From Serratia liquefaciens (GTDB taxonomy: Bacteria > Pseudomonadota > Gammaproteobacteria > Enterobacterales > Enterobacteriaceae), in contig NZ_CP088930.1 of the NCBI RefSeq assembly GCF_027594825.1, positions 3,967,019 through 4,031,018 on the forward strand: DNA of 64,000 bases, read 5' to 3'. Below, piece by piece: positions 6,293 to 36,950 of this stretch (positions are counted from its first letter, which is position 1; each line of letters opens with the position of its first letter). The notes beneath the pieces were generated by a model. The model searched no databases. It was not told the origin of the DNA and was given only the letters and a program-made list of their open reading frames with translations. The translations under genes were made by a program, and so were the position numbers.

Positions 6293-7078
6293 TTACGTCA
6301 GAGGGATCAGCATCACCAGTTTCAGCCCGCCGTTTTCCACCGGATTAAACGTCAGTTGCCGATAGCGCAGCTCGCCTTGTTGCCCATGAGTAAAAGCTCG
6401 TTCTCCCCCTTCGCGCGCCAGCACATCATGCTGTTTCCACCAGTGATGGAAGGCCTCGCTGTTGTGCGTCATGTTGCGTACGAAAGCGCGCATCTCTTCG
6501 GTATTTTGATGGTGGCTGGTTTCGGCGCGAAACTCGGCGACCACGCGTCGTGCCCGGTCCTCCCAGTCGCTGACCAGCGCTTTGGCCAAGGGATGAAAAA
6601 ACATAAAGTGCAGCAGATTGGGCGCGGCGGTTTGGTCCAGCCAGCCACAGAACAGGCTTTCCGCCGCCGGGTTCCAGGCGAGCACATTCCAGGTGATATC
6701 CAGCAGGTAGCAAGGCACCGTCACCTGGTTAACGCTTTGCAGCACCGCGCTGTTGTCGGCTTCGTGAGGCTGTTCCTGTTCGGGATCGGCGACTCGCGCC
6801 AGGGTAAACAGGTAGTGACGCTCGGCATGCCCTAACCGCAGTGCTTTGGCGATACGCGCCAGCGTATGCGGCGAGATGGAGACCTCGCGGCCTTGCTCGA
6901 TCCAGGTATACCAGGTGGCGCTGATACCGCTGATTTGCGCCAACTCTTCACGGCGCAGTCCACTGGTGCGACGGCGGGGAGCAGTGGGTAAACCCAGCAT
7001 TTCCGGCGTGATGCGCTCACGGTGTGCACGCAGAAATGCGCCGAGGGCTTTGGGGCCGGACAAGGCTTCAGTTTGCAT
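6293..7078 (-). CDS. XRE-type regulator with MmyB-like ligand domain
   Basis: A 261-residue transcription regulator. Residues about 10-85 form a helix-turn-helix of the XRE type (RRTSGLRREELAQISGISATWYTWIEQGR), and residues about 100-255 match the MmyB-like ligand-binding domain (WNVLAWNPAAESLF). The family tends to regulate a nearby or divergent enzyme gene. Here it is divergent from a YafE-like methyltransferase with a shared intergenic region of about 117 bases. The start is ambiguous: ATG at 7078 (MQTEAL) or ATG at 7114 (MSSYPS), neither with a strong ribosome site. The long open frame up to 7570 runs into the divergent gene and is not real. Confidence 0.85.
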   Translation of the reverse strand: MQTEALSGPKALGAFLRAHRERITPEMLGLPTAPRRRTSGLRREELAQISGISATWYTWIEQGREVSISPHTLARIAKALRLGHAERHYLFTLARVADPEQEQPHEADNSAVLQSVNQVTVPCYLLDITWNVLAWNPAAESLFCGWLDQTAAPNLLHFMFFHPLAKALVSDWEDRARRVVAEFRAETSHHQNTEEMRAFVRNMTHNSEAFHHWWKQHDVLAREGGERAFTHGQQGELRYRQLTFNPVENGGLKLVMLIPLT

Positions 7079-35928: not shown

Positions 35929-35950
35929 AGGGCTCTGCATGCAGAGCCCT
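35929..35950 (+). terminator. Palindromic hairpin after ppnP (left copy of repeat)
   Basis: A perfect 22-base palindrome whose central 18 bases are GGCTCTGCATGCAGAGCC. It lies 23 bases after the ppnP stop and would form an 11-base-pair stem in either strand. An identical 20-base stretch recurs at 36914-36933. Confidence 0.7.
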
Positions 35951-36003: not shown

Positions 36004-36207
36004 TCATTCATCATCTTTTATTTTTAAAACATATTTTTTCCAAAGACGGCTGGAAAGAAATGCATAAATTAATGTGAATATAATAGACGCAAGAAATGCT
36101 TTTATTAATGATGCTGGGAAAGTAAGTATCCTGATGTTTGCGATTAAATAAGTGGAAAAAGAAACTCCTGATATAAATGCCAATCTTCTTATTCTTTCTT
36201 TTTTCAC
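36004..36207 (-). CDS. Small two-helix membrane protein, probable microcin immunity protein
   Basis: A 67-residue protein with a basic start (MKKERIRRLAF), two hydrophobic helices (about 9-25 and 33-52) and a highly charged tail (RLWKKYVLKIKDDE). It starts at GTG 36207 with AAAAGGGATTCATT upstream, 55 bases after the microcin-like gene on the same strand. Class II microcins are always encoded with a small immunity protein, and many of these are two- or three-helix membrane proteins, so the assignment rests on context and architecture. No sequence family was recognised. Base composition is AT-rich like its partner. Confidence 0.55.
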   Translation of the reverse strand: MKKERIRRLAFISGVSFSTYLIANIRILTFPASLIKAFLASIIFTLIYAFLSSRLWKKYVLKIKDDE

Positions 36208-36262
36208 AATGAATCCCTTTTACCTAAAAAGGAGAGATTACAATCTCTCCTCATGTAACTAC

Positions 36263-36604
36263 TTACCAATGGCATTGACCGTTTACACTATTCTTATTTC
36301 TGTCTCCGCCAAAAGCACCACGTCCGTTATCGCCATTATTCCGGGGATCATTTACTGCATCTACTGCGGCATTATAACCAGCTTCGCCGATAATACCACC
36401 GATCCAACCCCCAAGAGCGGCCCCCAGAGGTGCTCCGGGCCCGGTAATGAGGGCTCCGATGTACCCCCCTGCTATGGCTCCTGCCCCTGCAGCTGCCGTT
36501 TTGCCTGCGCTATTAGCCCGGCTACTATTGTCAATCCGGTCACCGCCATTATTCCCGCGGCCGCCAGAAATAGAGTCAAGCATCGATGAATCAATAACTT
36601 TCAT
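36263..36604 (-). CDS. Putative class II microcin precursor with Gly-Gly leader
   Basis: A 113-residue peptide precursor. The first 15 residues, MKVIDSSMLDSISGG, have the form of a double-glycine leader (compare the MccV leader MRTLTLNELDSVSGG). The predicted mature peptide of 98 residues begins with an Asn/Gly-rich polar part. It continues into a Gly/Ala helix-forming core with many GxxxG patterns (about 38-82, GAGAIAGGYIGALITG and GAALGGWIGGIIG) and ends in a polar tail with one cysteine (GQCHW). This is the plan of pore-forming class II microcins. AAAAGGAATTATTT precedes the ATG. No C39-peptidase exporter is in the window, so export would rely on another locus. Confidence 0.65.
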   Translation of the reverse strand: MKVIDSSMLDSISGGRGNNGGDRIDNSSRANSAGKTAAAGAGAIAGGYIGALITGPGAPLGAALGGWIGGIIGEAGYNAAVDAVNDPRNNGDNGRGAFGGDRNKNSVNGQCHW

Positions 36605-36913
36605 AAATAATTCCTTTTCATGATGTGATTGATATGAATATATATTGGTGTGTGAGGCTATTTACAGATAGCTTGTTTTTCCGTCTAGATCAATACGGGT
36701 GGGTAAAAGAAAAATAAAAGGCAGTTAATGGTTGTACTAAAAAGGAATGTTGAAAGGTAAATAAGTCACTGATTGATATGTTTTTAAATGTTTGGTCGCT
36801 GATTATATATGTAAAAAATTGGCAGTTATAAGGATGAGAGAGTTAGCTCAATTTATATCGGTTACTGGAGGATTCGGATGTGTCCCTGATAAAGAATGGT
36901 GCAGTAGATCAAA
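36605..36913. other. AT-rich upstream region of the microcin-like gene
   Basis: About 310 bases without a supportable gene. It is strongly AT-rich (for example around 36630-36660 and 36700-36830) and probably carries the microcin promoter. A short open frame at 36792-36998 runs into rdgC antisense and is not believed. Confidence 0.5.
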
Positions 36914-36931
36914 GGCTCTGCATGCAGAGCC
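36914..36931 (-). terminator. Palindromic terminator of rdgC (right copy of repeat)
   Basis: GGCTCTGCATGCAGAGCC is a perfect palindrome 19 bases after the rdgC stop (minus strand), followed on that strand by TTTGATC. The same sequence lies after ppnP at 35931-35948. Confidence 0.75.
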
Positions 36932-36950
36932 CTTGGTATTTACGGTGGGA

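Follow-up and report, generated by a model that had tools for sequence, protein, structure and literature searches.

A putative class II microcin with a candidate immunity gene between ppnP and rdgC of Serratia liquefaciens

Our analysis covered a 64,000-nucleotide stretch of Serratia liquefaciens DNA (contig NZ_CP088930.1; hereafter the window). From comparison with related sequences, we conclude that the interval between ppnP and rdgC most likely encodes a secreted antibacterial microcin together with a membrane protein that would protect its producer. The original prediction had read these genes as a microcin/immunity cassette, and that reading is well supported: the peptide belongs to a family, a related pair lies beside an exporter on a plasmid, and the putative immunity protein co-varies with the predicted killing core. 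The distribution of the cassette is patchy and insertion-like, and the features are listed in Table 1.

Table 1. Positions of the cassette, its parts and its borders in the window.
Feature	Position	Strand	Description and evidence
Left palindrome copy	35931..35950		20 nt, terminator-like, GGCTCTGCATGCAGAGCCCT; exact repeat
Inserted segment	35951..36913		963 bp, 40% G+C vs 57% in the window; missing from 24/27 Serratia intervals
Putative immunity gene	36004..36207	-	membrane protein, 67 codons + stop, GTG start, ends WKKYVLKIKDDE; ORF, 16 homologues, dN/dS, co-variation with core class
Microcin precursor gene (putative)	36263..36604	-	113 codons + stop; ORF, homologues, dN/dS, plasmid copy
Conserved tail, putative uptake part	36266..36331	-	last 22 residues, ends NSVNGQCHW; motif counts, alignments
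Hydrophobic Gly/Ala-rich GxxxG core	36350..36514	-	about residues 31-85; alignment, limits set by eye
Double-glycine leader	36560..36604	-	15 residues, MKVIDSSMLDSISGG; sequence, Bacteriocin_IIc below cut-off, conserved in alignment
Possible ribosome-binding site	36611..36616	-	AAGGAA; by eye from sequence
Right palindrome copy	36914..36933		20 nt, identical to left copy (GGCTCTGCATGCAGAGCCCT); exact repeat

Results

The GG leader of the precursor is joined by a polar Asn/Gly linker to the GxxxG core, and a polar tail follows; the only Cys lies inside the C-terminal NSVNGQCHW. Both elements described in the original prediction, a 113-residue ORF with a 15-residue double-glycine leader and a hydrophobic GxxxG core followed by a polar tail with one Cys, were present as described. 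Mature class II microcins are smaller than 10 kDa; the mature part predicted after a cut at Gly-Gly has 98 residues and a mass of 9.46 kDa, and the 15-residue leader ending in GG falls within the 15-18 residues expected of the class. The profile check that had been proposed for the leader was suggestive only, with a Bacteriocin_IIc match at E 3e-5 but 24.4 bits against a cut-off of 27.1. MccV (PF17508) reached E 0.094 and 13.7 bits (cut-off 27). Because both matches are below cut-off, assignment to the class II microcins rests on context and family structure. By-eye comparison with the available description of class IIb microcins (PMC13101503) revealed no siderophore-type Gly/Ser-rich C-terminal motif in the tail, which ends GGDRNKNSVNGQCHW.

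Both ORFs are under purifying selection. Against the copy in G015, dN/dS was 0.13 for the microcin ORF, 0.08 for its GxxxG core and 0.17 for the partner gene; against the copy in G007, a genome of the same species as the window's genome (G000), values of 0.40 for the microcin and 0.29 for the partner were based on only 9 and 2 changes, respectively. A chance ORF is ruled out by the homologues and dN/dS, and an overlapping 145-codon ORF on the plus strand is considered a by-product because relatives and selection follow the minus strand. Fur regulation was also considered: the best upstream 19-mer agreed with the consensus at 11/19 positions, no better than shuffles. Two S. plymuthica copies of the window's microcin (P0006, P0007) have 80 residues, diverge after about 47 and are apparently frameshifted.

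The partner ORF follows the microcin ORF after 55 nt on the same strand. Its 67-residue product is hydrophobic, with a net charge of +8. The second hydrophobic stretch is clear (19-residue Kyte-Doolittle mean up to 2.1) but the first is weak (mean about 1.4), so that of the two-helix membrane protein originally proposed, the ORF, the 55-nt gap and one stretch stand firmly and two helices are plausible only. The small membrane gene lies beside the microcin ORF and co-varies with the core, and we regard its immunity role as putative; because homologues occur without a microcin in other genomes, it might serve a different function. The comparison of partner genes in relatives did not refute the cassette. 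The partner was found at 3/3 occupied ppnP-rdgC sites and on a plasmid, and in diverged form it adjoins family members in S. bockelmannii and Rahnella woolbedingensis, but several distant members had no partner detectable by the searches used, including tblastn (L083, L041, L044, L100, L101 and the second L037 peptide).

Pfam searches identified the flanking genes as ppnP (PF06865, E 7e-32) and rdgC (PF04381, E 5e-126). We then compared 27 Serratia genomes in which the two genes were found together. The cassette, with both ORFs, occupied three of these sites (G000, G007 and G015), and the other 24 intervals were empty and 66-273 bp long. A housekeeping membrane protein, the alternative named in the original prediction, is rejected on the 24/27 genomes without the insert. 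The first-proposed span, 36004 to 36604, holds both ORFs, but the inserted unit is longer, filling the 963 bp between two copies of a palindrome that lie 983 bp apart. Two exact copies were present at 3/3 occupied sites, compared with one copy at the empty sites of G016 and G017 and none at the remaining 22. In the genome, the 18-nt palindrome has exact matches at only these two places. Other hairpins or repeat-like sequence occurred in the 13 of 24 empty intervals that were viewed, and a different repeat-like element of more than 100 bp, without the cassette, was seen in intervals L051, L052, L068, L069, L074 and L075. Flanking palindrome repeats were not seen at the two other cassettes of the window's genome, and terminator duplication as a general insertion route was rejected on that ground. 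A search for a phage origin gave no match in a phage collection at E<=0.1.

A protein search with the microcin returned 17 homologues at E<=1e-3, and the named organisms among them were all Serratia. A profile built from 16 diverse members matched 88 proteins, the named ones from Serratia, Rahnella and Pantoea; NSVNGQC occurs in 60 of the 88 and is invariant in two alignments, and at least two of the matches bear the UniRef name 'Bacteriocin' (P0061, P0086). Scanning of contigs gave 16 family loci; Rahnella is among them, as is one Erwinia oleae contig that carries the tail. Beyond the genus, a family-wide search had matches in 14/392 genomes, 3 of these being Serratia. The S. bockelmannii relative had no match at E<=10 among solved structures, MccV included.

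The closest of the exporter-linked relatives is on pSERAS01 of S. marcescens AS-1, a conjugative plasmid with Tn3-family genes nearby. Its peptide (WP_126502365.1, annotated 'hypothetical protein') is 77% identical to the window's over 113 residues and is followed by an ORF, unannotated on the plasmid, that is 60% identical to the window's partner. Unlike the pair in the window, the plasmid pair adjoins PCAT, HlyD-type and CAAX-protease genes. The window therefore carries, in the chromosome, a pair that is accompanied elsewhere by its exporter. The microcin on pSERAS01 (L099 / L139) is surrounded by two PCAT-HlyD pairs and two genes for Tn3-family transposases.

The window itself had been noted to lack a C39-peptidase exporter, and one was expected elsewhere. 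The genome contains a single C39 match (G000:C1:78980), outside the window, in a 726-residue protein that combines a C39 domain with ABC-membrane and ABC-ATPase domains and whose gene overlaps that of a HlyD-type adaptor. Assuming a circular map, this PCAT lies about 1.4 Mb from the cassette. Two TolC-type proteins scored above the family cut-off. The PCAT, adaptor and TolC-type channel expected for a class II microcin are thus all in the genome, unlinked to the cassette, and the PCAT is about 39-41% identical to those beside family members. Among 30 Serratia genomes, a C39 match was present in 16/16 family-positive and 8/14 family-negative ones (Fisher P 0.005; leaving out the four small genomes G025-G028 raises it to about 0.046, calculated by hand). 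Of 34 family matches, seven are no more than 10 kb from a C39 gene, and three of these seven are partial (G029, G009 C33, G024); PCAT and adaptor are present in 5 of the 16 contig-scan loci. The S. bockelmannii relative has a PCAT 2.6 kb away, and plasmids of S. marcescens, Rahnella aceris and Pantoea agglomerans encode tail-bearing peptides next to a PCAT and an adaptor. Two loci (L020, L030) carry the family leader without a hydrophobic core about 4.4 kb from a PCAT. Separately, a 93-residue membrane ORF (L002 7345-7626), perhaps immunity-like, lies just upstream of the HlyD-PCAT pair of the window's genome.

As judged from the alignments, the family is modular: a common tail, NSVNGQC[HR]W, is found behind several hydrophobic cores, and there are three or more leader types. 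Three core classes can be told apart by eye: Cys-free GxxxG cores such as the window's, cores bracketed by Cys along with a related group that lacks Cys, and cores with a tail of their own ending KCSW or GCSW; these classes rest on by-eye motifs because BLAST did not separate them and put all 21 cores in one cluster. The partner proteins form three BLAST clusters that agree with the core groups. Over 21 pairs, core and partner similarity were correlated (Mantel r 0.815), and the correlation was 0.74 with the tail and 0.77 with the leader held constant. In comparison, leader-partner (0.41) and tail-partner (0.51) correlations fell to 0.00 and 0.05 once core similarity was controlled for. The core-partner value was 0.725 with 15 representatives (14 of the 21 pairs plus the plasmid pair) and 0.64 in the 10 sharing the NSVNGQC tail; P values for these tests are optimistic because the sequences, being related, do not count as independent. 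Similarity among partners goes with the core and shows no such link to leader or tail at constant core, as would be expected of core-specific immunity.

The 21 pairs were taken from 37 distinct ORFs. Six near-duplicates (L008, L011, L015, L016, L021, L026), L027 with its fused partner, and nine ORFs that had no core, lay on a cut contig or showed no partner in the scan (L020, L030, second L037, L038, L041, L044, L046, L047, L083) were left out, and some partner starts were trimmed to the start codon fitting relatives. One ORF outside this test, L038 of R. woolbedingensis, has a GxxxG core, and a tblastn search located a partner at 6388-6563 whose type fits that core.

The window's genome has two further family microcins, each with an adjacent small membrane ORF. 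L078 (G000:C1:4582016-4582315) lies between genes that we take to be gsiD and fghA, and L079 (G000:C1:920243-920590) between an M24-peptidase gene and one that we call norR-like; one of the two has the tail NSVNGQC and the other KCSW. Across 26 genomes, a microcin was flagged in the gsiD-fghA interval in two (G000, G006). In G007 (L103), about 194 bp including the core is lost from the microcin and the downstream partner gene is intact, and in G004, G017, G018, G019 and G020 the interval has immunity-like genes with no microcin flagged by the motif test. In G004, G017 and G023, a homologue of the window's partner lies next to a presumably TetR-like gene, and no microcin accompanies it. A weaker homologue (E 0.005) lies beside a speA-like gene in the window's genome, the place where G017 has both microcin and partner. 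Immunity-like genes often persist where no microcin was found, and the reverse also occurs, some microcins showing no partner in the searches.

Other arrangements were seen in passing. The M24 peptidase-norR interval holds three immunity-like ORFs and no intact microcin in L136 (G020), a fused 130-residue immunity-like ORF in L132 (G019) and two genes in L137 (G018). Lone immunity-like genes were noted at L089, L090, L091, L093, L097 and L078 4500-4724, and some are in genomes without a family microcin and without a C39 exporter (G004, G023). For E. coli bacteriocins, orphan immunity genes are reported to be common in the text available from PMC12546727.

Discussion

Taken together, the comparisons lead us to favor, with good confidence, one explanation for the whole cassette: a microcin that would be cut at Gly-Gly, exported in trans, targeted by its tail and lethal through its core, paired with an immunity protein that would recognize that core. 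The comparisons show the genes with their conservation and selection, the exporter genes, the insertion, the modular pattern and the co-variation of core and partner; the action of the pair, from leader cleavage and export in trans to uptake by a receptor, killing and immunity, is inferred as follows. The precursor would be cut after Gly-Gly and leave the cell through the genome's sole C39-peptidase ABC transporter and its adaptor, encoded elsewhere, together with a TolC-type channel. The common C-terminal tail may bind an outer-membrane receptor of related enterobacteria, after which the Gly/Ala-rich GxxxG core would act on the inner membrane, harming it or one of its proteins. In the producer, the 67-residue membrane protein is predicted to recognize the core and thereby block the damage step.

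The cassette could instead be degenerate or silent, so that the microcin is no longer made or exported and only the immunity gene is useful to the host. The unlinked exporter would fit this, as would the truncated sister copies of S. plymuthica and the other family microcin of G007, which has lost its core and kept its immunity gene. Nevertheless, the microcin ORF in the window is complete and has a low dN/dS in the G015 comparison, and the window's genome retains the PCAT, the adaptor and two other intact family ORFs; we consider a silent cassette unlikely.

Less likely still is a contact-dependent glycine-zipper toxin of the Cdz kind, forming surface aggregates on the producer and killing by touch without diffusion. 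Such systems, mostly single-toxin, have been proposed for S. marcescens in the available part of PMC5380434, and the GxxxG core and weak glycine-zipper Pfam matches in some relatives are in keeping with one. Secreted class II microcins of S. marcescens, however, gave inhibition zones (PMC13101503, as far as its available text reports). A near-invariant polar tail on different cores also suggests a binding part.

Double-glycine leaders mark signalling peptides too, and homologues of the small gene occur alone. Even so, a secreted signalling or other non-toxic peptide next to an unrelated membrane protein is very improbable, as the partner co-varies with the core specifically, presence is patchy, and 17/40 cloned S. 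marcescens class II microcins were antibacterial (PMC13101503, available text).

We can also speculate on how such cassettes arose, in a picture that is possible and that we offer tentatively. Serratia, Rahnella, Pantoea and Erwinia may share one uptake tail (NSVNGQC[HR]W, with CxW-ending variants) that has in nature been recombined with several killing cores, each of which would travel with an immunity gene locked to it. Cassettes would sit in scattered slots and be served by one stand-alone exporter, orphan and stacked immunity genes would remain after loss of the killing gene, and the arrival of the window's cassette would have left the terminator palindrome duplicated.

Both class II microcins of Serratia and the modularity of microcins have been published before. 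In S. marcescens, 96% of genomes were reported to contain putative class II microcins, and 17 of 40 cloned ones were active (PMC13101503, 2026, available text), so that 'new', as first claimed, holds for this sequence but not for its kind. In the accessible portion of a review, the C-terminal part of class II microcins governs uptake and the N-terminal part activity (PMC10233263); the background of PMC13174018, as available, states the opposite assignment. The letters of the tail were found in no paper of an open-access collection, supplements, which may hold the sequence, being excluded, and a search of the same scope found no paper on class II microcins of Rahnella. What may be fresh to a specialist is a natural series in which a single tail occurs with different cores and every core has a partner gene of its own. 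This study adds an unannotated putative microcin/immunity pair and, more usefully, offers that series, whose shared tail and differing cores and partners make both the receptor of the tail and the recognition of cores by small membrane immunity proteins testable. Immunity-like genes found orphaned or stacked in sister genomes may be a record of earlier exposure to microcins.

Among known systems, microcin V (colicin V) has the same layout as the putative cassette of the window, with a double-glycine leader, a Gly-rich hydrophobic core and a small immunity protein. The Pfam MccV model, on the other hand, matched the window's precursor at only E 0.094, below cut-off, and the tail differs from microcin V in that no disulfide loop is possible within it, because it has one Cys only. 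According to the available text of PMC5380434, Cdz of Caulobacter resembles the predicted pair in its glycine-zipper toxin, type I secretion and small inner-membrane immunity protein, but it is contact-dependent and aggregated, with two toxins in the type case. The class II microcins of S. marcescens, which are from another species and were compared by description rather than sequence (PMC13101503, available text), share with the window's putative pair the double-glycine precursors and small membrane immunity proteins and, as here, a PCAT in nearly all carrier genomes.
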